This document shows, piece by piece, positions 8,473 to 46,503 of a stretch of DNA of 55,671 nt. Made by a program: the position numbers and the translations under genes. Below the pieces are notes generated by a model. The model was not told the DNA's origin. It worked only from the letters and a program-made list of their open reading frames with translations, and did no database searches. The stretch is from Bacillota bacterium (lineage in GTDB: Bacteria; Bacillota; SHA-98; UBA4971), in NCBI GenBank assembly GCA_012841305.1, contig DUVA01000048.1, forward strand, positions 1 through 55,671, read 5' to 3'. Numbering within the stretch: the first letter of the stretch is position 1; the number at the start of each line of letters is the position of its first letter.

Positions 8473-8499
8473 ACCTTTTCTCGTCCACCTCATAGTATG
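8473..8499 (+). promoter_or_regulatory. Sigma-K-like promoter for yabG
   Basis: AC (8473-8474), a 16-base spacer, then CATAGTATG (8491-8499) fits the mother-cell sigma-K pattern AC-N16/17-CATANNNTA with one mismatch. yabG is sigma-K dependent in Bacillus subtilis, which supports the call. Confidence 0.55.
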
Positions 8500-8535
8500 T
8501 CATATCATGGACTTGATCCCTTTGGAGGGGAGAGC

Positions 8536-9426
8536 GTGGGCGAGATAAAAATCGGAGATAAGGTGGCGCGGAGATCTTACGGGTCAGACGTAATCTTCGT
8601 GGTCCTAAAGATAGTTACGGCTCGAGTGAAGGTTGCAAGGGTTCTTCTGCGAGGCTTGAATATGAGGCTCATGGCAGACGCCCCCGTTGATGACCTTGTG
8701 ACTATTCGTAATGAAGAGGTGGAATCATCATTTCAGAATCTTCACCAAGAGACACGGCAACTGGTGGAGAAGGTATTTCTAAGGCGCATGGCAGAGGATT
8801 TCAGCATAGATTATCGAGGGCGTGATGACGCAATTCTGCCTTCGGGCATTGATTATCGTCATTTCCCGGGAAAAGTCCTTCATCTTGACGGGGACGGGGA
8901 CTACCTGAAGCATTGCCTGAAGTACTACCAAGAACTTGGCGTGCCTGCTGTAGGATATCATGTCTCGGAAGAGGCACAGCCGTCGAAGGTTGCAGCACTT
9001 TTCAGAGAGCACCTTCCGGACATTTTGGTAATTACAGGCCATGACGGATTTATCGCGCGTGTAGGCGATAAGCTAAACCTGGACAGCTACAGAACATCAA
9101 GGTACTTTGTGGAAGCAGTAAAGAAGGCCCGACAGGTACAGCCTGACAAGGATTCTCTCGTGATCATTGCCGGGGCATGCCAGTCATATTATGAAGCTTT
9201 GATAGATGCGGGAGCAAATTTCGCGAGCTCCCCGCAAAGAATATTCATTCATTGCGCTGACCCGCTACTTGTCGCGGAGAAGATATCCCATACCCCATTT
9301 GATACCATTGTTCATGTGAACCAGGTAGCTGAAAACATAATCAGCGGGCTGAACGGAATCGGCGGCATAGAAACCAGAGGGAAGTTGCGTCTCAGCTTAC
9401 CGAATACAGTGTCAAATCACAAGTGA
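8536..9426 (+). CDS. yabG: Sporulation-specific protease YabG
   Basis: The protein has 296 residues from GTG 8536, 7 bases after GGAGGGG; the in-frame ATG at 8497 lies within the predicted promoter. YabG is a cysteine protease made in the mother cell that trims coat and germination proteins (SafA and SpoIVA in Bacillus, SipL and CspBA in Clostridioides difficile). The sequence matches the family throughout: KIGDKVARRSYGSDVIF at the start, then GKVLHLDGDGDYL, DILVITGHDGF, IIAGACQSYYEALIDAGANFASSP with conserved Cys/His residues, and IDP-type HCADPLLVAEKI. It stands between rsmA and veg as in Bacillus. SipL-type proteins, known YabG substrates in C. difficile, are encoded a few kilobases away. 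Confidence 0.94.
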   Translation: MGEIKIGDKVARRSYGSDVIFVVLKIVTARVKVARVLLRGLNMRLMADAPVDDLVTIRNEEVESSFQNLHQETRQLVEKVFLRRMAEDFSIDYRGRDDAILPSGIDYRHFPGKVLHLDGDGDYLKHCLKYYQELGVPAVGYHVSEEAQPSKVAALFREHLPDILVITGHDGFIARVGDKLNLDSYRTSRYFVEAVKKARQVQPDKDSLVIIAGACQSYYEALIDAGANFASSPQRIFIHCADPLLVAEKISHTPFDTIVHVNQVAENIISGLNGIGGIETRGKLRLSLPNTVSNHK

Positions 9427-9644: not shown

Positions 9645-9920
9645 ATGGCAGGCAGAAATGCCCTCGAAATCATTAAGCGAGATCTTGAGCCATTTGTCGG
9701 TAAGAAGGTCATGGTCAGGGCAAATCAGGGACGCAGGAAGGTCTTTGAAACTGAAGGGATTCTTGAGAACACATACCCCAGACTATTTGTGGTAAAGTTG
9801 TCTGATAAACCGGGATTAGTGAAACGAGTCTCCTATACCTACGCCGATGTTTTGACTGAAACAGTAAAACTGTCTGTTCGGTGTAGGGATGAGGAGAAGA
9901 GAATCGGCTGCGCGGGCTAG
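9645..9920 (+). CDS. veg: Veg family protein
   Basis: The protein has 91 residues from ATG 9645, preceded by GGAAGGTGG. The family is recognisable from ALEIIKRDLEPFVGKKVMV, then GRRKVFETEGILENTYPRLF and RVSYTYADVLTETVKL. In Bacillus subtilis Veg is small, abundant and made from one of the strongest vegetative promoters, and stimulates biofilm gene expression. The fold is SH3-like and the biochemical action is unsettled. Two near-consensus sigma-A promoters lie directly upstream, consistent with high constitutive expression. An ATG or GTG further upstream (9601) would place the second promoter inside the coding region and is rejected. Confidence 0.95.
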   Translation: MAGRNALEIIKRDLEPFVGKKVMVRANQGRRKVFETEGILENTYPRLFVVKLSDKPGLVKRVSYTYADVLTETVKLSVRCRDEEKRIGCAG

Positions 9921-12014: not shown

Positions 12015-12069
12015 GTGTAAGATCCTACGCTTGCCTTCTAAGTTTGTGATATTCGAGGGGGATAAGCTT

Positions 12070-14043
12070 ATGGCATATGCATCTCATAGGTGTTGTTCTG
12101 ATGTAACTCATAGATCCTGTTCCGAGATGACTCTTACGTTGCCTATTCCGGCAATCAAGATAAAGGAGATCCGTGCTCACGTTGACAGCGTTACGACACA
12201 TGTAATTCCAGGTAAGGTGATAGTCCAAGGGACGCTTCAGAAGCAAGTGTTCTTTGTAGGGGAAGACAACATTGTCCATCACTTCCCTGAACAAGCGCGT
12301 TTCTCGGCTTTGATTGAGATACCCGCGGTTGTGCCGGGCCCTGAGGTGGTGGTGCAGGCTCATCCTAGGGTATTCAATATTATTGCTACCTTGAGCCCTG
12401 ACGGCACTCAAATAACGCAAAAGGTCATTATCGATGTGGACGTGACCGTCACCCAGTTTGCTCAGGTGCCCCTTGAGGAAGACCCTGAGGGGCCCAGTGT
12501 CCTGACAGAAGAAGTGATAGGAGAAGACACAGGCCAGATTCTTGAATCAGGGACTGTGACTTTGGTTACGCCTGCAGTCAAGGTAACTGACATCCGCGTA
12601 AATCCTGAGATTACTCAGGTTACGGTAAAAGAAGACAAAGTAGTGGTCCAAGGGAATATTCTAAAACAGATCTTCTTCATTGATCTTGATCAGGTAGGCC
12701 GCCATCAAGCTGTCGTGGTACCGTTCGCGATAATGATAGATATCCCCGGCGCACAGCCGGGCATGAATGTCCAGGCGCGTGCTACTGTAGCAGACGTGAA
12801 TTTCACCTTGGATCCGACAGGCGCTTTTGTCAGTCAGGAAGTGGTCCTTGACGTATTCGCAAAGGTCACTCAGACCGTTGAGGTATCACTGGCGTTAGGC
12901 GACGACTTGACTATCAAGACTGAGCAGGTAATTGCCTCTGCTTCAACTCAGATAATGGAAGAAGTCACTGTTGTTTTGGCGCAACCCGCCATCAAGATCA
13001 AGGACATAGAGCTGGTTGTACAGGATGCCAGAGGCCGTACAATTGCAGATAAAGTCATCATACAGGGCGTCTTCGTAAAAGACGTGTATTACATTAACGA
13101 AGACGATGTGGAGGTCCTGGAGTCCTTCACTATTCCCTTCAGCACTTTCATACCGGCACCAGGGGTTACGCCCGGGCTTAACGTTTTTGTCCTCGCACAG
13201 GCTTTACCGGTAGTATTTGATCCTTCGCAGACCGGAACGGAGATAACAGAGAAGGATCTTGCAGAGATTGAGGCCATCATTACAGAGACAGTGAAAATCG
13301 AAGTTGAAGAGGATCCCACCGGTACCCTGTTCAAGGTCCAGAAAGTGATCGGAGAAGGTACAGCACAGGTTTGCGCTGAAGGAATACCCGTGCCTGTGCT
13401 TCCCATTACCATAGAATTTGAAAGAATACGTGTGGGAGAGGCGGTAGAGGCTGAGAAGCAGCTGCTCGTAGAGAACTCAATTTGCCTGCCGTTCATCGCC
13501 AAAAAGATCAAGTCAGTAGAATCCACGGTTCAGAATGTGACCTTTGAGATCGTTGGGGAGCAGGTTCTTGTTGAAGGTGAAGTCAAAAAGGACGTATTTG
13601 TGGTCGGGCTTGATAACATAGTCCACCATATCCAAGAGATCGTCCCATTCAGCGGGTTTGTCGATGTGCCCGGAATTGTGGAAGGCGCAACAGTTACTGT
13701 GGATGTAGTAGTGGAGAGCCTTGTTCAGAACCTCATCTGTGGGGGAAGCAAGATTCAGCAACTGATAGTCTTACTTGTTACTGTCACATCAGCCGAAGAG
13801 AGAATCGTTCAAGTGGTGGTAAACGTGACAGGCCCCGGTGTTTTCCAAACCAAGACAAAGGTCCTTGTCGATGTTGTCGATGATGGTAACCCGAACCCTG
13901 TGCCGCTTGATGTGGTTACAGATCTTACCGGGCCCAACGTAGACACAGTTACGAAAGAGACGCTTCTCCTCGTAGTAATTGTGAACGGGACTGTTGGCCC
14001 TGTGCCTGTGTCTGTAGTAACGAACGCTACATTTAAGATTTAG
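12070..14043 (+). CDS. Four-repeat SPOCS (DUF3794) protein, SPOCS-1
   Basis: The protein has 657 residues from ATG 12070, 7 bases after GAGGGGGA; the in-frame ATG at 12031 has no ribosome site. It contains four SPOCS-type repeats (about 25-140, 165-275, 300-415 and 465-580) and a further beta-rich tail. Each repeat begins with an AIKIKEI-like strand, then a KVIVQGTLQKQVFFV-like hairpin, and ends in a long QKVIIDVDVTVTQ-like strand. Repeats 1 and 4 share a VHH motif. SPOCS domains occur in SipL, which binds SpoIVA at the forespore surface. There is no LysM and no signal peptide, consistent with a mother-cell cytosol or coat location. A structural coat role is inference from the family and from the LysM-bearing paralogues downstream. 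Confidence 0.85.
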   Translation: MAYASHRCCSDVTHRSCSEMTLTLPIPAIKIKEIRAHVDSVTTHVIPGKVIVQGTLQKQVFFVGEDNIVHHFPEQARFSALIEIPAVVPGPEVVVQAHPRVFNIIATLSPDGTQITQKVIIDVDVTVTQFAQVPLEEDPEGPSVLTEEVIGEDTGQILESGTVTLVTPAVKVTDIRVNPEITQVTVKEDKVVVQGNILKQIFFIDLDQVGRHQAVVVPFAIMIDIPGAQPGMNVQARATVADVNFTLDPTGAFVSQEVVLDVFAKVTQTVEVSLALGDDLTIKTEQVIASASTQIMEEVTVVLAQPAIKIKDIELVVQDARGRTIADKVIIQGVFVKDVYYINEDDVEVLESFTIPFSTFIPAPGVTPGLNVFVLAQALPVVFDPSQTGTEITEKDLAEIEAIITETVKIEVEEDPTGTLFKVQKVIGEGTAQVCAEGIPVPVLPITIEFERIRVGEAVEAEKQLLVENSICLPFIAKKIKSVESTVQNVTFEIVGEQVLVEGEVKKDVFVVGLDNIVHHIQEIVPFSGFVDVPGIVEGATVTVDVVVESLVQNLICGGSKIQQLIVLLVTVTSAEERIVQVVVNVTGPGVFQTKTKVLVDVVDDGNPNPVPLDVVTDLTGPNVDTVTKETLLLVVIVNGTVGPVPVSVVTNATFKI

Positions 14044-14123: not shown

Positions 14124-16202
14124 ATGTTCATAGGGCTATGGCAATCAGGCGTAATTGTGGCTGCTATTGCCCTTGTCCTCCTGGGACTTTTGCTGATACC
14201 GCGTCGCAGGCGCATGGTTGAAACACTTCTTGGCGTCGATTATCCTGATGATGACAATGGCCTAGAACTATCATTAGGGCACAGCAATCCTCAGCCGGCA
14301 TTAGCACAACATATAGGTGAAGTAGCTTTTGCGGTTGACTGCGACCTTTTGGAGGACGGCGGAGGGGCGGAGGTCAACCAAGAGACAGTATGCTCCGAAG
14401 CTGTCCAGGCCAAAAGGAATCTCATGCTGCGTGCCCCTGGTTCGTGGCATGCCGGAAATGCCACACCTGCACCCACATGCACTTCTGAACCGGCGATCAC
14501 AATCACATTCCAACCTTCTTCAAGCGAAATTCACATGGATCTGCCCAGCGAAATAACTCTCAGGGCGGAATCTTTCGATAGTCTAGGCCAGATTATGTGC
14601 TGTCAGAGTGAATCTAACTTTTTGCCGGAAGCTCCCTGTACTTCGTCAGAAGATCATGACGACGCCAGGTTAGGGTTTCTGTATCCTATCTCTCATGATC
14701 GGGAAGAGGATGCAGAGGAACAAGAACATGTACCTGTCCAACATCAGTCTCAGGCGACAGAGGGCCCAAGGGAGGCGCGACCCGTATTTCTTAATCGTTT
14801 GATGGAAAGCCCATTCAGGCTTAGGGAAGGAGGCTCGCATATGCTGAATATCGAGAAGTACAGTCAGGTTCAAACAGCGTGTCTTAAGGTGGAAAGGGTT
14901 GTAGGCCATGGTTCAAAGCAGGTCCTTTTGGAGGAGACAAACACTATACCCGGGATCAAGATAGTGGAAATCATTCCTACGCTCATCAATATTCGTTCCA
15001 TAGTAAAGGACGGCAAAGTCATTATCCAAGGCACTGTCCACAAGCAGATATTCTACATTGGTACTGACGAACTGGAACATCACCTTGCAGAGGATATGGA
15101 TTTCAGTGAGCTTGTTGATATCGAGCCGTTGAATCCTATGTGTCCGGTGCGAGAAGGCATGAATCAGCAGGACTTCTCTGTAATTGAGAACAGCGTGTTT
15201 GAGTTTGACCCGGATACCGGCGCTTTGACGCAGAAGATCATCCTTAGATTGTGTGTGAAGGTAACTGAAACAGAACAACTTGAGGTGGGGGTTGGTTGTC
15301 AGGGCACGCTGATCAAGGCTGCTGTTGTAGTCGGTGAAGGCACAAAGCAGAAGTTCATTGAGGAGACGAAAGTCATTCCTGCAATTAAGGTCATTGAAAT
15401 CGTCCCACGAATATCTCAGATCAGGCACACAGTCAAGAACGGAAAAGTCCTGGTCCAAGGTATCGTTCATAAGCAGATATTCTACGTAGGTACAGACGAC
15501 CTAGTTCATCACCTGGCAGAAGACATTCCATTCAGTGATCTTGTGATAGTGCCATACGCATGTGAGGGAATGAACTCTCAAGACCATTCCTTCGTAGATA
15601 ACCTTGTGTTTGAATTCGACCCTGCTACCGGTGCTCTCACTCAAAAGATTATCCTTGCCCTGTCCGTGAAGGTTACGGAGACATGCGGGGTGCCGGTGAT
15701 TGAAGGAACCGCGGGAACGCTTATCAGCGCTAACCAAATCATTGGGATGGGATGCGCCGAGAAGCTGGTTGAGGAGACAAAGACCCTGACAGCCATTAAA
15801 ATCGTAGATATCGATGCCAGGATCAGTGAAATAACGTCCATAGTCAAGAACGGCAAAGTCATAGTGCAAGGGACTGTCCACAAGCAGATATTCTATGTCG
15901 GTACAGACGACCTTGTCCATCATCTTGCAGAGGATCTGCCTTTTAGCGAAATGATAGAGATACCCCCGATAAATCCGGAATTCCCTGTGGAGGAAGGCAT
16001 GGATCAACAGGATCACTCATTTATTGAGAATATCGTATGGGAATTCGACCCTGCCACAGGCGAGCTTACGGAGAAGGTTATCATCGGCATACAGGTAGTA
16101 GTGACGAATCATATTCAAATACCGGTAGTGGTCATTGGCGGCTGTCCCGGCAACGACCTTTGGCCGATCAAGGAGGGTTGTCCAGCCGATACCGTCAAGT
16201 AA
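14124..16202 (+). CDS. Membrane-anchored three-repeat SPOCS protein, SPOCS-2
   Basis: The full frame encodes 692 residues from ATG 14124, after AGAGGGGGA. One transmembrane helix (about 8-27) is followed by a basic RRRRR stretch, a low-complexity acidic linker to about residue 235, and three SPOCS repeats (about 250-690). The repeats are closely alike, each with a V.GKVI.QGTVHKQIFYVGTD core and an HHLAED motif, so they arose by recent internal duplication at roughly 410-430-bp steps. A perfect AAGGAGG (14827-14833) stands 7 bases before an in-frame ATG at 14841, exactly where the repeat part begins, so a 453-residue soluble form may also be made. If so, the gene yields both a membrane-bound and a free SPOCS protein. 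Confidence 0.82.
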   Translation: MFIGLWQSGVIVAAIALVLLGLLLIPRRRRMVETLLGVDYPDDDNGLELSLGHSNPQPALAQHIGEVAFAVDCDLLEDGGGAEVNQETVCSEAVQAKRNLMLRAPGSWHAGNATPAPTCTSEPAITITFQPSSSEIHMDLPSEITLRAESFDSLGQIMCCQSESNFLPEAPCTSSEDHDDARLGFLYPISHDREEDAEEQEHVPVQHQSQATEGPREARPVFLNRLMESPFRLREGGSHMLNIEKYSQVQTACLKVERVVGHGSKQVLLEETNTIPGIKIVEIIPTLINIRSIVKDGKVIIQGTVHKQIFYIGTDELEHHLAEDMDFSELVDIEPLNPMCPVREGMNQQDFSVIENSVFEFDPDTGALTQKIILRLCVKVTETEQLEVGVGCQGTLIKAAVVVGEGTKQKFIEETKVIPAIKVIEIVPRISQIRHTVKNGKVLVQGIVHKQIFYVGTDDLVHHLAEDIPFSDLVIVPYACEGMNSQDHSFVDNLVFEFDPATGALTQKIILALSVKVTETCGVPVIEGTAGTLISANQIIGMGCAEKLVEETKTLTAIKIVDIDARISEITSIVKNGKVIVQGTVHKQIFYVGTDDLVHHLAEDLPFSEMIEIPPINPEFPVEEGMDQQDHSFIENIVWEFDPATGELTEKVIIGIQVVVTNHIQIPVVVIGGCPGNDLWPIKEGCPADTVK
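14827..14843 (+). promoter_or_regulatory. Strong internal ribosome binding site and start in SPOCS-2
   Basis: AAGGAGG at 14827-14833, then 7 bases, then ATG 14841 in frame with the SPOCS-2 gene. The site separates the membrane/linker part from the SPOCS repeats. Confidence 0.6.
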
Positions 16203-16287: not shown

Positions 16288-16411
16288 GAATTAATGCCCT
16301 CCTTTTCTCCTCGGACACCAATTCATGACAGAATACCGGAAAACTCCTGTGAATAGGGATTCAGTACAGTGGGCCATACATACTTTGCGGCAGCCGGATA
16401 GGAGAAGAGAG

Positions 16412-16978
16412 GTGCACATTTTGGGCTGTCTTACAATAGAGAGCCGAGAAGTGCAGATCGAACAAGTCATAACTCGTTTCACTCATAGTGCATCCATAAG
16501 AGCTTCACATGTAGTAGAAGATCTATCCAGGCAACAACCCTTCGGGATTACCATCGACTTACTATCTCTGTCATGGGAAATCCTAGATGGCTCTGCCATT
16601 GCCTCTTTGGATCTTTCAATATGGGTCTACTTACCGTGTGATGGTGAAATTCAGGCAGTGTCCTTGATTCATAAGATGCGAACACTTATAAGAATCCCGG
16701 AAATCAGCTCTTCCATGCGCATAGAGGCCAAATTTCGTGTTGAAGACATTGAAGTGGCTCCTGATGAAATAGACGGTGAAATGGTTATTGAAGCTGTCGC
16801 TTTCATTGAAGGGCTTGTCCTTGAGAAGCGTATTCTCCACGTTGTGACCGGGGTTATGTTGGAACGAGATACTTGCCGGGTCTCAGAGGACGAAGGATTT
16901 CCAGCCCGATTTCGCTTCCTGGCCACCATAGGCAACCTGTTCAACCAGATCGCGGGTGTCCTCCGAAGGAATCGTTAG
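16412..16978 (+). CDS. Degenerate single-SPOCS-like protein
   Basis: The protein has 188 residues from GTG 16412, 7 bases after AGGAG; a longer in-frame reading from ATG 16325 has no ribosome site and follows the terminator closely. No motif is strong, but the strand order matches a SPOCS repeat: an early ESREVQIEQVI strand, a GSAIASLDLSIWVYL hairpin in the place of QGTLQKQVFFV, then LIRIPEISSSMRIEAKFRVEDIEV and a long GEMVIEAVAFIEGLVLEKR strand. It lies 6 bases ahead of the pseudo-GH18 gene, so the two are probably co-translated. Assignment to the SPOCS family is inference from pattern and context. Confidence 0.6.
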   Translation: MHILGCLTIESREVQIEQVITRFTHSASIRASHVVEDLSRQQPFGITIDLLSLSWEILDGSAIASLDLSIWVYLPCDGEIQAVSLIHKMRTLIRIPEISSSMRIEAKFRVEDIEVAPDEIDGEMVIEAVAFIEGLVLEKRILHVVTGVMLERDTCRVSEDEGFPARFRFLATIGNLFNQIAGVLRRNR

Positions 16979-16984
16979 CTTGCC

Positions 16985-18487
16985 GTGGGTGACAATGACG
17001 AAAACGTCACAAACCTGTTGGCCCAGGCATACAATAAATTCGCAAGGTACGGGAATCTGTCTTCATTCACCTGCATGGAGGACGTTCTTGCCATGGCATC
17101 ATCTCAAAGGGAGATCCTTTGGAAAAGAACCCTGAGACCCGATATGAAAGGCCAGGATGTGGCAGCGCTTCAACGACGTTTGGCTGAGCTCCGTTACTAT
17201 ACAGGGGCATGTGACGGAGTGTATGGCCTTCTTACAAAGGGCGCTGTATTTGACTTTCAGAAAGCCCACAGGTTAAGGGTTGACGGTATTGCAGGCAAGG
17301 AAGTCTTCAGTCTTCTTAAGTCGGGGCTTGAGCGAGAAAAGATTGAGCACATAGTTACGAAAGGCGAGACCCTTGCCGGCATTGCCGGTAAACATAAAGT
17401 CCCTCAAGAATTGCTTGTCACGGCAAATTCCTTAAGGACGGAGAAAGTTGAAGAAGGCGACAGTCTGATGATTCCTGTATTGCGCCTTTTCGGATTCTGC
17501 TCCCCTCCGGTTCCCGGAGAGCCCGTATGTTCCCACGAATACGTGTTACCATTCCTTACGGCAATTGCGCCTCGATGGTTCTTTGTTGATGAGCATGGGG
17601 ATATTCAAGGCGCGCCCGACAGGAGGCTTGCTGCTTTGGCACAGATGACAGGTGTAGAGCTATGGCCTGTAGTAAGTATCGCAAGACCCGGACCCCGCGA
17701 GGAAGGAGTCGAGATCCGAGACCCTCTTGATAACGTGCTCTCAGACAGCTTAGCTTATTCCAAGGCAATAAAAGGTTTATCGGCTCTTGCGACTCGAATG
17801 CGAACTAAAGGATTCATCATTTCTGCAGGAACTATTCATGAAAAAGACGTCTATGCATTTCAATCCTTCCTCCGCAAGATTCGGAACGCCCTCAAGCAAG
17901 AGGGGCTTATGCTGGCAGTTGAAGTTCCTTTGCCTGAGGATGCCGTATCCTGTCAGGGACAGGATCGTAGAAAAGGCATACAGGATTTAGAGGGTATTGC
18001 GTCCGTTGTTCACCTGGTCTTTCTCAAGGCGTATAAAGATCCGTGGGAGTTTACATCTCCCGAACCCATAGTATCTATTAACCGTTGCAGAACTGCATTG
18101 AAAAGCCTTGCCCGAGCACTGGATTTCTGGAAAACGATAGTTGTCATGCCTGCTTTCGGTGTCGACTTCTCTTCAGGCCTTGGCACAACTCCCCTTCGAA
18201 AGAGGCATCGGGAGATCATGGAGATAATGGAGCTCTTCAAACCTACGGTGTCACAGCCTGACGGGGAAAAGTCTAAAGTTTTCAGGTACAGATCATTTCG
18301 TGTCAGTCATACTGTGTATTTCGAGGATGCAGAGAGCATTGGCACCTATGCAGATCTGGCGCAAAGATATGGCGTAGCCGGCATTGCCATTGCCGATTTG
18401 GAGGATGTGGATCCATGGGTTTGGTCTACGCTCAAGGCCAGGTTCAAGGTGGTAAAGGATGGAGGTGGGGATCGGGGTTTCAAGTAG
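16985..18487 (+). CDS. Peptidoglycan-binding / LysM / GH18-like protein lacking the GH18 catalytic motif
   Basis: The protein has 500 residues from GTG 16985. Domains are PG_binding_1 (about 48-112, RPDMKGQDVAALQRRLAELR), LysM (about 120-165, HIVTKGETLAGIAGKHKV) and a GH18-like barrel of the YaaH/SleL spore type (about 188-495). YaaH-type enzymes are N-acetylglucosaminidases acting on cortex fragments, with DG-x-D/N-x-D-x-E on the fourth barrel strand. Here the matching strand reads KGFIISAGTIHEKD (275-288), so the catalytic Glu and both Asp residues are absent. The fold markers around it (AFQSFLRKIRNALKQEG, YFEDAESI, GIAIADL) are kept. It is probably a spore-surface binding protein rather than an enzyme. 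Confidence 0.8.
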   Translation: MGDNDENVTNLLAQAYNKFARYGNLSSFTCMEDVLAMASSQREILWKRTLRPDMKGQDVAALQRRLAELRYYTGACDGVYGLLTKGAVFDFQKAHRLRVDGIAGKEVFSLLKSGLEREKIEHIVTKGETLAGIAGKHKVPQELLVTANSLRTEKVEEGDSLMIPVLRLFGFCSPPVPGEPVCSHEYVLPFLTAIAPRWFFVDEHGDIQGAPDRRLAALAQMTGVELWPVVSIARPGPREEGVEIRDPLDNVLSDSLAYSKAIKGLSALATRMRTKGFIISAGTIHEKDVYAFQSFLRKIRNALKQEGLMLAVEVPLPEDAVSCQGQDRRKGIQDLEGIASVVHLVFLKAYKDPWEFTSPEPIVSINRCRTALKSLARALDFWKTIVVMPAFGVDFSSGLGTTPLRKRHREIMEIMELFKPTVSQPDGEKSKVFRYRSFRVSHTVYFEDAESIGTYADLAQRYGVAGIAIADLEDVDPWVWSTLKARFKVVKDGGGDRGFK

Positions 18488-18656: not shown

Positions 18657-20258
18657 ATGGCTGTGGGTATCGAGCTCAAAGAGGAACTCCTAAAAGTTGA
18701 ACAGGTCATTGGCGAAACCACGGCGCGGAAGGTCCTGCGAGAAGTCATCAAAATAGCAGACACCCTACCTACTGCTGAGAAGATTATCAGTGTGGATGTT
18801 ATCATTCTCACCACGTCTTTTCAGCTGATTAAGAACAAGATCTTAGTTGAAGGGACAGCTAAGGTAAGAATTCTCTACGTAGCTCGGGAGGCTACCGGAG
18901 CGCAGCCGGTTCAGGTATTCGAAGAAGACATATCATTTGAGCTTATCGCTGAAGTGCCTGGGACTGAACCGTTAATGAATGCCTGGGTGCAGGTGGACGT
19001 CCATGATATAGCCTTCGATCTGGTTGACATCAGGACTGTTGATGTACGCGTTGTGATTTCTGCCAGGGTTAAGGTCACTGTAACTGAGCAATTAGAGGTG
19101 GTCACAGAGGTGACCGGGCCCGCGGATTTGCAGGTTACGAGGGAGCTCCTAAAAGTCGAGGATGTAATTGGTGACGCTCAAGCACAGGCTCTTGTAACCG
19201 GTAGGCTCATAGTCCCGTTTGAGAAGCCGGATATAGATTCTGTCATAAGCGTCGAGGCTAAACCGCGCCTCACAGATGTGCAAGTTCTCGACGGCCAGGT
19301 AGTTGTTGAAGGCTTAATAGATGTTGACGTTCTTTACGCTGCAGTGCCCCAGGACCCAACTCCTGAAGGCGTGAAACTGCCGGTTCACTTCTTCTCGAGT
19401 CAATTGCGATTCTCCCAGGTAGTAGAAGTCCCAGGTGCAGCAGTCGGCATGGTTGCCCAGGCCAGAATAATCTTTGAAACAGTCAGCTTTACTGAACTGG
19501 ATTTCCGCACCGTAACTGTGGACGTAGTCCTGAAAATCGTTGCCAAAGTAACTATTGTCAGGCAACTGGAAATTGTCACAGATGTGACTTCTGCCAGTGA
19601 AGTCCTTGACGTAGAAAAGCGTCTCCTTAGAGTAGAAGATGTTATAGGGGAAGACATAGCTCAGACCATTATCAAAGAAGTCCTGGAGGTGCCAAGAGAG
19701 AAGCCCAATATTGAACGTATCCTCCGCATTGATACTTCAGTGAAGGAAACATCGTGGAGGATCATTGACGGCAAGGTAATCATTGAAGGAGTTATAGAAC
19801 TCCAAACTCTTTACGTGGCGCAAACACCTGAAGGAGACCAGCCTGTACATCATATGTCCCATCGGGTGAAGTTCACTCTTTTCGTGGAGATACCAGGCAC
19901 ACAAGAGGGCTTCACTGCAGAAACTCGCGTAGCCGTCGAACATGTCGACTTTGAGCTTGTTGAAGACAGACGGTTCACTGCTAAAGTGCTTGTCGGCGTA
20001 TTCGCGAAAGTGACTGAGCCGGTGCAACTTAATGTAGTCGTCAATGTAGTTGTTGTTTCACCTGCTCCGCCAGCGCCATGCCCACAGCCTACCATTGTCA
20101 TGGTGACGATTCAGCCGGGTGATACTCTCTGGGCGTTGGCCAGGAAGTATAATACGACAGTCGAAGCGATTATTCAGGCGAACCCCGGGATACAGCCGGA
20201 GAACCTCCAGGTGGGCCAGGTAATACAGATCCCTGCCTGCCCTGCTCCTAAGGGGTGA
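18657..20258 (+). CDS. SipL-like coat morphogenesis protein: three SPOCS repeats plus LysM
   Basis: The protein has 533 residues from ATG 18657, 7 bases after AAAGGAGG; ATG 18630 is upstream and has no ribosome site. The three SPOCS repeats (about 1-150, 155-310 and 315-470) each start with LLKVEQVIGE or a close variant. They are followed by a Pro-rich linker and a C-terminal LysM (about 484-528, VTIQPGDTLWALARKYNTTV). This is the architecture of Clostridioides difficile SipL, which binds SpoIVA through its LysM and is needed to encase the forespore in coat. A similar LysM-bearing paralogue lies at 23738. I cannot tell which of the two is the true SipL orthologue. Confidence 0.87.
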   Translation: MAVGIELKEELLKVEQVIGETTARKVLREVIKIADTLPTAEKIISVDVIILTTSFQLIKNKILVEGTAKVRILYVAREATGAQPVQVFEEDISFELIAEVPGTEPLMNAWVQVDVHDIAFDLVDIRTVDVRVVISARVKVTVTEQLEVVTEVTGPADLQVTRELLKVEDVIGDAQAQALVTGRLIVPFEKPDIDSVISVEAKPRLTDVQVLDGQVVVEGLIDVDVLYAAVPQDPTPEGVKLPVHFFSSQLRFSQVVEVPGAAVGMVAQARIIFETVSFTELDFRTVTVDVVLKIVAKVTIVRQLEIVTDVTSASEVLDVEKRLLRVEDVIGEDIAQTIIKEVLEVPREKPNIERILRIDTSVKETSWRIIDGKVIIEGVIELQTLYVAQTPEGDQPVHHMSHRVKFTLFVEIPGTQEGFTAETRVAVEHVDFELVEDRRFTAKVLVGVFAKVTEPVQLNVVVNVVVVSPAPPAPCPQPTIVMVTIQPGDTLWALARKYNTTVEAIIQANPGIQPENLQVGQVIQIPACPAPKG

Positions 20259-20338: not shown

Positions 20339-21754
20339 ATGGTTCTGAGAAGGGAACGCCTCAAGCTCTTCGAAGTCGTCAGCGAGACTGTGACCACTGT
20401 TACGCTGAGGAGTATTCAGTCAGTGCCTGCGGGGAAACCTGACGTCCAGAAGATCTTGAGCATAGCTAATGTAACAGTCTCAGCAACAGGGACGCCGCTA
20501 CCCAATAAAGTCGTAATTGAAGGCACCGCAACAGTCCAGACTATATACGTAGCTGCACTGCCTGACCAGCCTGTCCACCATATGGAGCACGTCATAAGCT
20601 TCCTGCAATTTGCCGATGTGCCTGGGACACAACCCGGTATGACAGTAATATTGAAGCCTCGGGTGAAGTTCTCGGACATAGTAATAAGGTCGCCAAGGGA
20701 AGTGGAGATAGAAATCATCATAGAATTCCTTGTGAAAGTAATTAGGCTAGTCCAGCTTGATGTAGTCACTGACGTCATGTTCAAAAGCGTCCCCGTTAAA
20801 GTCGACAAACAGCTTTTCCGGGTCGAACGTGTCAGAGGTGAGAATACAGGCCAGGTGATACTAAGTAACATGTTGCCTGTGCCTGCCGGCAAACCGCCTG
20901 TCCAGAAAATCTTAAACGTTGTCAGCACAGAAATCATAACAGATGAGGTGCGGATTATTCCGGATCTCGTAATTATCCAGGGTAGGGTCAGAACCCAAGT
21001 GATTTATGTAGCTGCAGAGCCGGATCAACCTGTTCATCACATGCATTTGGAAGTAAATTTCCTGGCAAATATCAGAATACCCGGGGCGGTGCCGGGGTTG
21101 ATGGCAGAGATATTCCCGAGCGTAGAGTTTGTGCAGGTGTCTATTGTAAATCCCACTACTGTCATGCAAGACTTGATCCTGAGTATCTTTGTGAAGGTCA
21201 CTGAAATTCAACAACTCCGTGTAGTTACAGACGTAAGGTCAGACAGAATTCCGATTAATGCCGTAAGACAGCTTGTAGCCATAGAGGACGTGGTAAACGA
21301 AAAATCTCAGCAAATCAATATCCACAGGGAGGTAGAAATACCTGAGGAGAAGCCGCCTGCGCAAAAGATCCTTCAGATCTTCAGTTCAACTGTGGACATA
21401 ACACGGTCTGACATACTCGATGGCAAGGTCATCCTGGAAGGCACCTTGGTCCTCCAAATAATCTACGTTGCAGCTGAACCTGACCAACCTGTGCATCATG
21501 CCCATGTTGAAATACCGTTTACCACATTTGTGGATCTGCCCGGAGCTTATCCCGGCATGAATCTCCTGGTGCGGCCAAGGGTGGAATTCGCTACTGTCCA
21601 GTTCTTGCCGGTAGGGGTGACTCCTCCTCCTGAGATCGGCACGAGGGATCTCCTGGTTGACGCTATTATCGAGGTATTTGTGAAGGTAACGAAGACAGTC
21701 CAGAAGTATGTAGTTATCGATGTGATCGTTCCTCAGGGATTTCGGGATCCGTAA
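20339..21754 (+). CDS. Three-repeat SPOCS protein without LysM, SPOCS-3
   Basis: The protein has 471 residues from ATG 20339, with GGGAGGG upstream. It has three SPOCS repeats of about 155 residues, each with the core DQPVHHM or DQPVHHA followed by an F-strand and PG.QPGM-type turn. The repeats share VPAGKPPVQKIL-like segments with the other cluster members. There is no signal, membrane segment or LysM. No promoter is visible in the 80-base gap behind SPOCS-LysM-1, so co-transcription is likely, and a clear terminator follows. It probably partners the LysM-bearing paralogues in the coat, which is inference. Confidence 0.84.
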   Translation: MVLRRERLKLFEVVSETVTTVTLRSIQSVPAGKPDVQKILSIANVTVSATGTPLPNKVVIEGTATVQTIYVAALPDQPVHHMEHVISFLQFADVPGTQPGMTVILKPRVKFSDIVIRSPREVEIEIIIEFLVKVIRLVQLDVVTDVMFKSVPVKVDKQLFRVERVRGENTGQVILSNMLPVPAGKPPVQKILNVVSTEIITDEVRIIPDLVIIQGRVRTQVIYVAAEPDQPVHHMHLEVNFLANIRIPGAVPGLMAEIFPSVEFVQVSIVNPTTVMQDLILSIFVKVTEIQQLRVVTDVRSDRIPINAVRQLVAIEDVVNEKSQQINIHREVEIPEEKPPAQKILQIFSSTVDITRSDILDGKVILEGTLVLQIIYVAAEPDQPVHHAHVEIPFTTFVDLPGAYPGMNLLVRPRVEFATVQFLPVGVTPPPEIGTRDLLVDAIIEVFVKVTKTVQKYVVIDVIVPQGFRDP

Positions 21755-23596: not shown

Positions 23597-23672
23597 GAAA
23601 GGCCCTCCTTTTGTTCCACTAAGAAGTAATACGACAATCTGCCGAAGTAGTTCCCGTACGTGGTTCCAAGTG

Positions 23673-23700
23673 ACGCACTTTCCTCACCCGGCATATCATA
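23673..23700 (+). promoter_or_regulatory. Sigma-K-like promoter of SPOCS-LysM-2
   Basis: AC (23673-23674), a 17-base spacer, CATATCATA (23692-23700), a full match to AC-N17-CATANNNTA. It is 37 bases before the start codon. Confidence 0.58.
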
Positions 23701-23737
23701 TTCTGGTAGATGTGTTACCAGAGAGGGAGGGAGGGAG

Positions 23738-25435
23738 ATGTCAGAGGATTTGACCATCTCCGGTGTTCATCACAAGAAGGTAAAAGTGGAGGTAATAGTT
23801 GCTGATGTAAGCGCCACTATTGTCGCCAGCGGTCAACTTACCGTGCCGCCTCCGAAGCCTGACATAGCTTCGATTCTGGATACTCAGGCCGAGGTTACTA
23901 TTAGCCGTGTCTCAGTCGTTTCCGGAACCGTCGTGATCCAGGGAAACGTGATAGTGGACATAACATATGTTTCCACCGCGCCTTCCCAGCCGGTTCACTT
24001 CTTCGAAGGGACCTTATCCCTGTTCGGAAGTGTCAATGTGCCTGGGATTTTTCCGGGAATGACTCCTGAAGTAGTGGTAACGAGTGTTTATGCCACATCT
24101 CGTCTTGTGGATCCCAGAACAGTTGAAGTTAACGTGTTAGTCACGGTAAGGGTGAAGGTCCTAAGAGAACAGGTCCTGCCGATAGTCAGTGAAGTCCCGA
24201 AAACGATTATTGTGCCTACTGTAACCGTGCCTGTAGTTCCTATAGTCCAACGCAGGGTCGTCACGGTGGAACGTGCTGTGCTGCAAGGAGAAGCCCAGAC
24301 GATTGCTGTAGGGACTATATCCATACCGCCTGATAAGCCAGGCGCATCGGATATCATTCGAACCAGCGCTGCCGGATCTGTTACCCGGGCTAACGTGCTG
24401 AGAGGTAAGGTAGTGGTTGACGGGGTTGTATCCACACGCACTCTCTATGTAGGCCTGAGTCCTGCACAGCCTGTTTTCTCCGTGGACGGAGTCATCCCCT
24501 TCAGCGTAATTGTAGATCTTCCCGGGGTAGAAGTAGGAATGTTTGCGTTTGCGGCTGTGCAGATTGAGGCAGTGGACACGACTATTGTGAATGCTCGCAC
24601 CTTGCGTATAAGGGCAGTGGTCAAAGTCTCAGTGGTCGTTACGGTAGAAAGAGAGCTTCCCCTCGTGACCGGCATAGGAGCTCTTCCGCCTACGCTTGTG
24701 CCTATCACCCAGGACTTCCTTGTGGAGGAGATCGTGGGTCAAGTACAGGATGATTCCACGGTTACGGTGCAAATCGTAGTTCCTGCCACGCTCCCCGGTA
24801 TTGGAAGGGTCATACAGTCCTTTGCTCAAGCCAGGATTACCAAGACCATAGTTCTCGATGGTGTAATCATAGTTCAGGGGACTCTGAGGATTACTATACT
24901 CTTCTCTGAACTGCCCAGCCAGAAAGTGTTTGCTCATGTTGAGACAGTGCCCTTTTCAGTGACACTACGTATACCCGGGGCTGTTCCGGCTTTCTTCGGA
25001 ACAGCGGAAGTAACCGTGGTTAGGGTAGTGGCAGTCCCGGTGCAGCCTAAGATCGCAAATGTCAGGGTAACGTTGCGAGGCTGGGGAATGGTGACAAGGA
25101 TCGATACCGTCCCTACGGTAGTCGATATTCGTTCTCAAGGGGCAGGGCAAGTTCCGCCTGGAATAGTGGTGCCACCGGGAACTGAAGTGCCACCAGGAAC
25201 CGTGACGCCACCCGGAACAAGCGTTCCCGGAGGGGGAGAGTTGCCGGGGCCACCGGTTAGCTCAAGTTCACAAAGCTCATCAAGCGCAGGAGGTAGAGTC
25301 TACGTAGTCCAGATTGGGGATACTGTGTTCCGAATAGCACAGAGATATGGCACCACCGTTGACGCGATAGTACAGGCAAATAGCATTCAAGATCCGGATC
25401 GAATAGTAGTCGGCGACACGTTGGTGATTCCATAA
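23738..25435 (+). CDS. SipL-like protein: three SPOCS repeats, Pro/Ser linker and LysM
   Basis: The protein has 565 residues from ATG 23738, which follows a purine-rich GAGGGAGGGAGGGAG site; the in-frame GTG at 23660 lies inside the promoter. It has three SPOCS repeats (about 5-150, 170-310 and 325-460), then a PPGTEVPPGTVTPPGT-type linker, a serine run, and a C-terminal LysM (about 518-562, YVVQIGDTVFRIAQRYGTTV). The layout matches SipL and the paralogue at 18657, but its repeats lack the HH motif of most other repeats in the cluster. It has its own sigma-K-like promoter and is separated from the rest by the redox cassette. Confidence 0.86.
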   Translation: MSEDLTISGVHHKKVKVEVIVADVSATIVASGQLTVPPPKPDIASILDTQAEVTISRVSVVSGTVVIQGNVIVDITYVSTAPSQPVHFFEGTLSLFGSVNVPGIFPGMTPEVVVTSVYATSRLVDPRTVEVNVLVTVRVKVLREQVLPIVSEVPKTIIVPTVTVPVVPIVQRRVVTVERAVLQGEAQTIAVGTISIPPDKPGASDIIRTSAAGSVTRANVLRGKVVVDGVVSTRTLYVGLSPAQPVFSVDGVIPFSVIVDLPGVEVGMFAFAAVQIEAVDTTIVNARTLRIRAVVKVSVVVTVERELPLVTGIGALPPTLVPITQDFLVEEIVGQVQDDSTVTVQIVVPATLPGIGRVIQSFAQARITKTIVLDGVIIVQGTLRITILFSELPSQKVFAHVETVPFSVTLRIPGAVPAFFGTAEVTVVRVVAVPVQPKIANVRVTLRGWGMVTRIDTVPTVVDIRSQGAGQVPPGIVVPPGTEVPPGTVTPPGTSVPGGGELPGPPVSSSSQSSSSAGGRVYVVQIGDTVFRIAQRYGTTVDAIVQANSIQDPDRIVVGDTLVIP

Positions 25436-45628: not shown

Positions 45629-45922
45629 GTGCCGGCCAGGAAGAAAAGACCTGCTAAAGCTAGGGCTAAACGCCCATTGGATTCGCTGAAATACGAAGTT
45701 GCCAGGGAACTCGACCTTCCCAAAGAGGTATTTGAGGAGGGTTATTGGGGGAATCTGTCTTCCAGGCAGTGTGGAGCCGTGGGCGGCCAGATGGTCAAAA
45801 GAATGATAGAGGCTGCTCAAAAGGCCATCGCTGAGGAAGCAGCAGCTCAAGCCATAGCGGGATTCCGATCCGGTTTAGGGCTTCCTCCGGAAACAGACGT
45901 GGAGATACCGTCTGAATTGTAG
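45629..45922 (+). CDS. Alpha/beta-type small acid-soluble spore protein (SASP) 1
   Basis: The protein has 97 residues from GTG 45629, 7 bases after AAGGAGGGG. The N-terminus is a long Lys/Arg/Ala stretch. The germination-protease site is in LKYEVARELDLP, and the DNA-binding part has GYWGNLSSRQCGAVGGQMVKRMIEAAQ, the GG.MV signature of the family. SASPs coat spore DNA in the forespore and are degraded on germination. A Cys in the conserved CGAVGG is shared with SASP 2. It is longer at both ends than Bacillus SASPs of ~60-70 residues. No clear sigma-G promoter was found. Confidence 0.93.
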   Translation: MPARKKRPAKARAKRPLDSLKYEVARELDLPKEVFEEGYWGNLSSRQCGAVGGQMVKRMIEAAQKAIAEEAAAQAIAGFRSGLGLPPETDVEIPSEL

Positions 45923-46158: not shown

Positions 46159-46503
46159 ATGGCACGTGGCTCACGTAGAAGGAATCGCCCGGTTGTCCCT
46201 GAGGCCCTTGCAGCGCTTGATAGGTTTAAGTACGAAATTGCAAACGAACTGAACCTGCCTGGCAATATCATAAACACGGGATACTGGGGGAACTTGCCTT
46301 CAGCTCAATGTGGCGCAGTCGGCGGACAGATGGTTCGCAGGATGATAGAGGCTGCCCAGCGGTCGCTGATAGAAGGCACTATGGCCGGAGTCAAAGCAGG
46401 ATTCCAGGCCGGCCTCACCCAGCAAGGCGTCACCCAGTCCTTCACTCAGACCGGCTATGGAGCGGGGCAGACAGGTTATAATGAACCTATCCAGCCTGTA
46501 TAA
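46159..46503 (+). CDS. Alpha/beta-type small acid-soluble spore protein (SASP) 2
   Basis: The protein has 114 residues from ATG 46159, after GGAGGGTGGTG. The protease site is FKYEIANELNLP and the DNA-binding signature GYWGNLPSAQCGAVGGQMVRRMIEAAQ. It is a paralogue of SASP 1 but carries a 35-residue Gln/Gly/Thr-rich tail (SFTQTGYGAGQTGYNEP) that is unusual for the family. It has its own terminator, so the two SASP genes are separate units. Confidence 0.93.
   Translation: MARGSRRRNRPVVPEALAALDRFKYEIANELNLPGNIINTGYWGNLPSAQCGAVGGQMVRRMIEAAQRSLIEGTMAGVKAGFQAGLTQQGVTQSFTQTGYGAGQTGYNEPIQPV

Follow-up and report, generated by a model that had tools for sequence, protein, structure and literature searches.

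The pseudo-GH18 gene and its setting

The window, a 55,671-nucleotide stretch of DNA from a member of the Bacillota (contig DUVA01000048.1), carries a gene for a degenerate GH18 protein, here called pseudo-GH18, within a cluster of genes encoding SPOCS proteins. The features of the locus are listed below with their grounds in brackets; residues are numbered on the open reading frame as first called.

8497-9426, + strand: yabG, spore protease gene (PF05582, 1e-104)
9645-9920, + strand: veg (PF06257, 7e-28)
12031-14043, + strand: SPOCS protein of the cluster (3.5e-38)
14124-16202, + strand: SPOCS protein of the cluster (3.5e-28)
16325-16978, + strand: upstream gene w15, fast-evolving and at most weakly SPOCS-like (Pfam, profile comparison)
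17006-17035, + strand: predicted mother-cell-type (SigE/SigK-like) promoter, GTCACAAA-N14-CATACAAT (conserved spacing, shuffles)
17077-17081, + strand: ribosome-binding site GGAGG (found in 5/5 species compared)
17093-18487, + strand: pseudo-GH18 gene, corrected coding sequence, 464 aa (stops in frame further upstream in three relatives; shared ATG start, MASS..; GGAGG)
17150-17314, + strand: PG_binding_1, residues 56-110 (Pfam E = 4.4e-15)
17348-17476, + strand: LysM, residues 122-164 (Pfam E = 8.2e-7)
17537-18439, + strand: degenerate GH18 barrel of SleL/YaaH type (sub-threshold Pfam match, structure alignments, Foldseek)
17807-17830, + strand: lost catalytic strand KGFIISAG, residues 275-282 (active relatives: DGVN(I/L)D(F/L)E)
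18657-20258, + strand: SipL-type neighbour with three SPOCS and a C-terminal LysM, open reading frame called from 18630 (SPOCS 3e-54, LysM 1e-16)
20339-21754, + strand: SPOCS protein of the cluster (4.8e-48)
23660-25435, + strand: SPOCS-LysM protein of the cluster (5.2e-39)

The preliminary description had placed an open reading frame at 16985-18487 (+), with KGFIISAG at residues 275-282, inside a SPOCS cluster; both the frame and its setting were recovered as described, with SPOCS genes on either side. The frame starts at GTG 16985, and ATG 17093 is its Met37. Upstream of M37 it is not conserved, whereas ATG 17093 (MASS...) and a GGAGG 11 bases 5' of it are common to the sister species, as is a promoter-like GTCAC...CATA(C/G)AAT with constant spacing within what had been taken for coding leader. 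Given the ribosome-binding site at 17077-17081, the stop codons that interrupt the frame ahead of Met37 in three sister species (L007, L009 and L043) and the conserved promoter within the leader, the true start is almost certainly ATG 17093, and the same grounds rule out GTG 16985. The spacing of 6 bases behind a SPOCS-like gene that had been noted is therefore a start-codon artefact; the gap between ATG 17093 and w15 is 114 bases and, since it holds the conserved promoter, the pseudo-GH18 gene has a promoter of its own. The description of w15 as SPOCS-like survives only in part: it is not established as a clear SPOCS protein, having no Pfam SPOCS match and a weak profile comparison (E = 0.009, probability 5%), although its positional counterpart in locus L047 matches SPOCS at 9e-9. 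In other families (L046-L049) the position of w15 is taken by proteins of 570-630 aa, one of which matches SPOCS, and w15 itself, with a dN/dS of 0.3-0.5, changes more rapidly than the other genes of the cluster.

The predicted promoter is the top-scoring site of its kind on either strand of the window. In all ten family f1 loci whose upstream region is complete, CATACAAT or a one-base variant follows a GT(C/A)AC-type -35 at a distance of 14 bases (at most 4 of 100 shuffles); a search ahead of the f2 and f3 genes and the deeper ones found no mother-cell promoter, and it is clear only in f1. The SigE consensus is GTMATAWW-N14-CATAYAMT and that of SigK is AC-N17-CATANNNTA. We take the site at 17006-17035 to match both, and it is therefore called mother-cell-type only.

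Loss of the catalytic site

The encoded protein has the architecture PG_binding_1–LysM–GH18, and the retention of the first two domains agrees with what had been reported from the sequence. No Pfam match to SPOCS (PF12673) was obtained in the protein, the adjacent gene having SPOCS, and no export signal or signal peptide was found in it. The Pfam GH18 match at residues 286-469 falls below threshold (24.4 bits against a cut-off of 29.6); both the single sequence (phmmer) and the class profile align with the SleL/YaaH structure 4s3k and with YdhD (3cz8), the match to 4s3k reaching E = 2.6e-47 with a profile of 13 class orthologues. Alignment with SleL/YaaH structures had been proposed as a check on the assignment of the lost strand, and those to 4s3k and 3cz8 put KGFIISAG on the acidic strand (..FDFE / GGVTIDFE); at the same columns the paralogue on contig C49, the only other GH18 gene found in this genome, reads DGVNIDLE. 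The claimed loss of both Asp and Glu on beta-4 is thereby borne out, the strand aligning unambiguously. At beta-6 Tyr350 is kept and Lys351 replaces Asp; at beta-8 Ala470 replaces Trp. Measured against an active GH18, the protein has the fold and an end-to-end profile match, and it lacks both the catalytic DxxDxDxE on beta-4 and the beta-6 Tyr-Asp and beta-8 Trp of the -1 site.

Structure prediction was informative at the strand and poor overall. The two AlphaFold models, built from four sequences, are of low confidence (mean pLDDT 43 and 49) and were used for strand assignment and Foldseek family alone; in both, residues 276-281 form a beta-strand followed by a helix (local pLDDT about 70-87), and a Foldseek search with the second ranks SleL and YdhD first (E about 1e-10).

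The gene was found in 16 of 17 genomes compared from the class, and D-x-E is kept by none of the 15 orthologues with a readable strand, a count that leaves out G003, whose contig ends before the motif. The strand endings observed are SAG, SVG, SIG, SVE, SIN, SVS, SVC, SVA, WLD, CLT and WLT. A local quirk or an assembly error is ruled out by the absence of D-x-E from all 15; the loss is shared throughout the class, and it extends far beyond the genus.

Distribution, selection and history of the dead family

Searching 399 genomes from the phylum with profiles recovered more genes combining PG_binding_1 with GH18, and degenerate related genes occur in at least nine further families, the distribution being a lower bound. 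We fetched the loci of the full-architecture matches listed, together with 18 LysM-GH18 loci for comparison, giving 53 GH18 genes with flanks; the named relatives are metagenome assemblies, and L099, a degenerate gene ending at a contig edge, was left out of the counts. Thirty of the 53 are SPOCS-linked, with a SPOCS-LysM gene directly downstream in 20 (spacing 0-140 bases) and a SPOCS gene within 1.9-5.4 kb in ten class loci. In L139 the SPOCS-LysM neighbour came to light on inspection of the locus; Pfam confirmed it, and its start lies about 100 bases on. Near the 23 intact genes (5 with PG_binding_1, 18 with LysM only) no SPOCS gene was found within the fetched flanks.

The catalytic D + E pair is kept in 0/30 SPOCS-linked genes versus 23/23 unlinked ones, the beta-6 Tyr in 5/30 versus 23/23 and the beta-8 Trp in 3/30 versus 23/23, while a hydrophobic N-terminus is seen in none of the linked and most of the unlinked proteins; the contrast is clear, and it is given without a p-value because the comparison set, two of whose contigs are short, is the top of the search list and so non-random, and because the rows are related to one another. 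That the catalytic residues are lost and the GH18 site is dead is strongly supported by these alignments, as is the earlier contention that the protein is not a hydrolase. The window protein fits what we define here as the SipL-linked pseudo-GH18 family, having PG_binding_1, a dead GH18, no export signal and a SPOCS neighbour.

Partial sites do occur among the SPOCS-linked genes, five deep members retaining Glu without Asp and four Asp without Glu, which could be taken to mean that the protein is still an enzyme, with its catalytic residues relocated in the barrel or its mechanism altered. We consider this very improbable, as no new acid is conserved at the barrel strand ends of the class orthologues: the conserved barrel acids (A4) include E374, which is invariant and lies outside the strand ends, and D358, which is nearly invariant and whose column is Asp in active genes too. 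In family f56 (L095, L096, L131-L133) the catalytic Glu is kept and the Asp two residues before it is changed to Ala, Gly or Pro, a separate route of active-site decay.

In a barrel tree calculated without the motif columns, one branch parts the dead from the intact genes with support of 100/99 when all rows are included; removing the Tyr and Trp columns together with ten rows on long branches brings the support for this split to 86/88. A single ancient loss of the active site is the reading that the tree favours, and two losses are possible; one or two remain in play because the tree had no outgroup rooting and the support fell to 86/88.

Comparison of the window gene with three relatives 55-85% identical to it (NG86) gave an overall dN/dS of 0.20-0.24, with 0.22-0.27 in the barrel and 0.12-0.17 in PG_binding_1, against 0.02-0.12 for three neighbouring SPOCS genes. 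Purifying selection acts on the pseudo-GH18 gene; its barrel is under constraint, though a looser one than that on the neighbouring SPOCS genes. This looser constraint is what a decaying gene on its way out would show, but such a fate is hardly credible here: dN/dS lies well below 1, near orthologues that do not end at a contig edge have intact frames, and promoter and synteny are conserved; the dN/dS values and intact frames rule it out. Between taxonomic families the dead proteins are 48% identical in PG_binding_1 and 21% in the barrel, compared with 47% for intact barrels, and a block of the barrel is missing in four deep relatives (L092, L093, L094 and L098). Within the dead family, constraint has shifted from the barrel to the PG_binding_1 module.

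Gene order in the class is SPOCS13-SPOCS14-(w15 or its longer counterpart)-pseudoGH18-SPOCS-LysM17-SPOCS18-SPOCS-LysM22. In L035 (6914-9179) the counterpart of the SPOCS gene at 14124-16202 is split into two overlapping frames, by a frameshift or an assembly error. Readable loci of the sister genus and other class families (L044-L053) have glycosyltransferase genes before the pseudo-GH18 gene, and genes for a GDP-mannose 4,6-dehydratase and a nucleotidyltransferase after it, the latter resembling mannose-1-phosphate guanylyltransferase. These flanking genes suggest a spore-surface glycan, and pseudo-GH18 might help to build or anchor such a polysaccharide together with their products. We regard this as improbable, since neither the cluster of the window's genus nor the deep loci contain the GDP-sugar and glycosyltransferase genes, although pseudo-GH18 and the SPOCS genes persist there.

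A possible partner of the SipL layer

In Clostridioides difficile the gene order is yabG-veg-sipL (PMC10681294), sipL is controlled by SigE (PMC3789822), and SipL is built from three DUF3794 domains plus a SpoIVA-binding LysM (PMC6436350). Loci L095 and L096 read ksgA-yabG-veg-pseudoGH18-SPOCS-LysM, and in the window ksgA, yabG and veg stand a few kilobases before the SPOCS cluster. Because the order yabG-veg-pseudoGH18-SPOCS-LysM parallels yabG-veg-sipL, and because the downstream neighbour has the layout of SipL, our leading inference is that pseudo-GH18 is a partner of the SipL layer. Like SipL and SpoVID, the SPOCS/LysM coat morphogenetic proteins, it has a LysM and lies in the yabG-veg region; unlike these SPOCS-bearing proteins it has no SPOCS, and would thus be a partner rather than SipL itself, the neighbouring gene being the SipL-type one.

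Judged from sequence and gene order, pseudo-GH18 is probably an ancient non-catalytic GH18-fold spore protein, made in the mother cell, that serves as a binding or scaffold subunit of the SipL(-SpoIVA) layer. The mother cell would make the protein, which would join this layer at the outer face of the forespore and act there in binding, as a scaffold or in sensing. PG_binding_1 and LysM could bind peptidoglycan or its precursor, or may recognise a coat partner, while the barrel would be a spacer or a protein-binding body and not an enzyme.

A binding or scaffold role had been proposed in the preliminary description and is also our best reading; its placing on cortex glycan fares less well. The cleft of the dead barrel might, in the manner of chi-lectins, still bind GlcNAc-MurNAc and hold cortex strands or lipid II uncut. 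Other GH18 proteins are known to have become lectins, the chain also carries two modules suggestive of glycan, PG_binding_1 and LysM, and families f2 and f3 retain an aromatic at beta-8. Against this, the beta-8 Trp is lost in 27/30 and the beta-6 Tyr in 25/30 of the SPOCS-linked genes, the barrel diverges fast with its block missing in four deep members, and the protein lacks a signal peptide that would take it to the cortex; we think a lectin-like cleft unlikely, if less so than a surface polysaccharide role. With Trp and Tyr mostly lost, gaps in the barrel block and no signal peptide, a position beside SipL, at the outer forespore membrane on the side facing the mother cell, suits the protein better than one in which the barrel grips cortex strands like a lectin. 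The shift of constraint to PG_binding_1 and the barrel gaps speak for recognition through the N-terminal modules rather than for a lectin cleft in the barrel.

Most of the known dead GH18 proteins are lectins of animals and plants. Chi-lectins (YKL-40, Ym1, TCLL) and other dead GH18 proteins share with pseudo-GH18 the barrel, the lost catalytic acid and retention under selection. Chi-lectins are secreted and keep an aromatic sugar site, whereas the pseudo-GH18 family is mostly without the Trp and Tyr and has no export signal; the window protein has lost the catalytic acid in an otherwise kept barrel, and its aromatic -1 site is gone (Ala470). The spore LysM-GH18 glycosidases SleL/YaaH and YdhD (4s3k, 4s3j, 3cz8) belong by profile and Foldseek to the same GH18 subfamily and likewise have an N-terminal LysM and a spore association, but in pseudo-GH18 DxE, the beta-6 Tyr-Asp and the beta-8 Trp are altered or lost, and PG_binding_1 and the linkage to SPOCS genes are added. 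SafA resembles it in bearing LysM and in its part in spore coat assembly; to our knowledge, SafA has neither a GH18 barrel nor PG_binding_1. The LysM coat protein SafA switches from protein to peptidoglycan binding (PMC6436350), and the LysM of SpoVID binds lipid II and SpoVK in the mother cell (PMC10659427). By analogy with the SpoVID LysM in the B. subtilis coat-cortex checkpoint, pseudo-GH18 might be a dedicated SipL-SpoIVA subunit outside the model spore-formers, a former glycosidase that uses its dead enzyme fold and two wall-binding modules to read the state of peptidoglycan precursor or cortex at the forespore surface and relays it to coat assembly, a suggestion we offer tentatively and with considerable doubt.

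No dead GH18 tied to SipL was found in the open-licence papers searched, and checking a Moorella spore protein paper by locus tag and name did not find the pseudo-GH18 family. The family is a dead spore glycosidase kept across a dozen bacterial families, with SPOCS genes alongside wherever the neighbourhood is readable, and it provides a candidate partner for SipL, a protein essential to C. difficile spore formation. Annotation of GH18 matches beside SPOCS genes as cortex-lytic enzymes should be avoided. Elsewhere in the window, two neighbouring genes encode small acid-soluble spore proteins (46159-46503 by Pfam, 45629-45922 by sequence likeness), and an L,D-transpeptidase (YkuD) with two PG_binding_1 stretches is encoded upstream, at 1594-2601.
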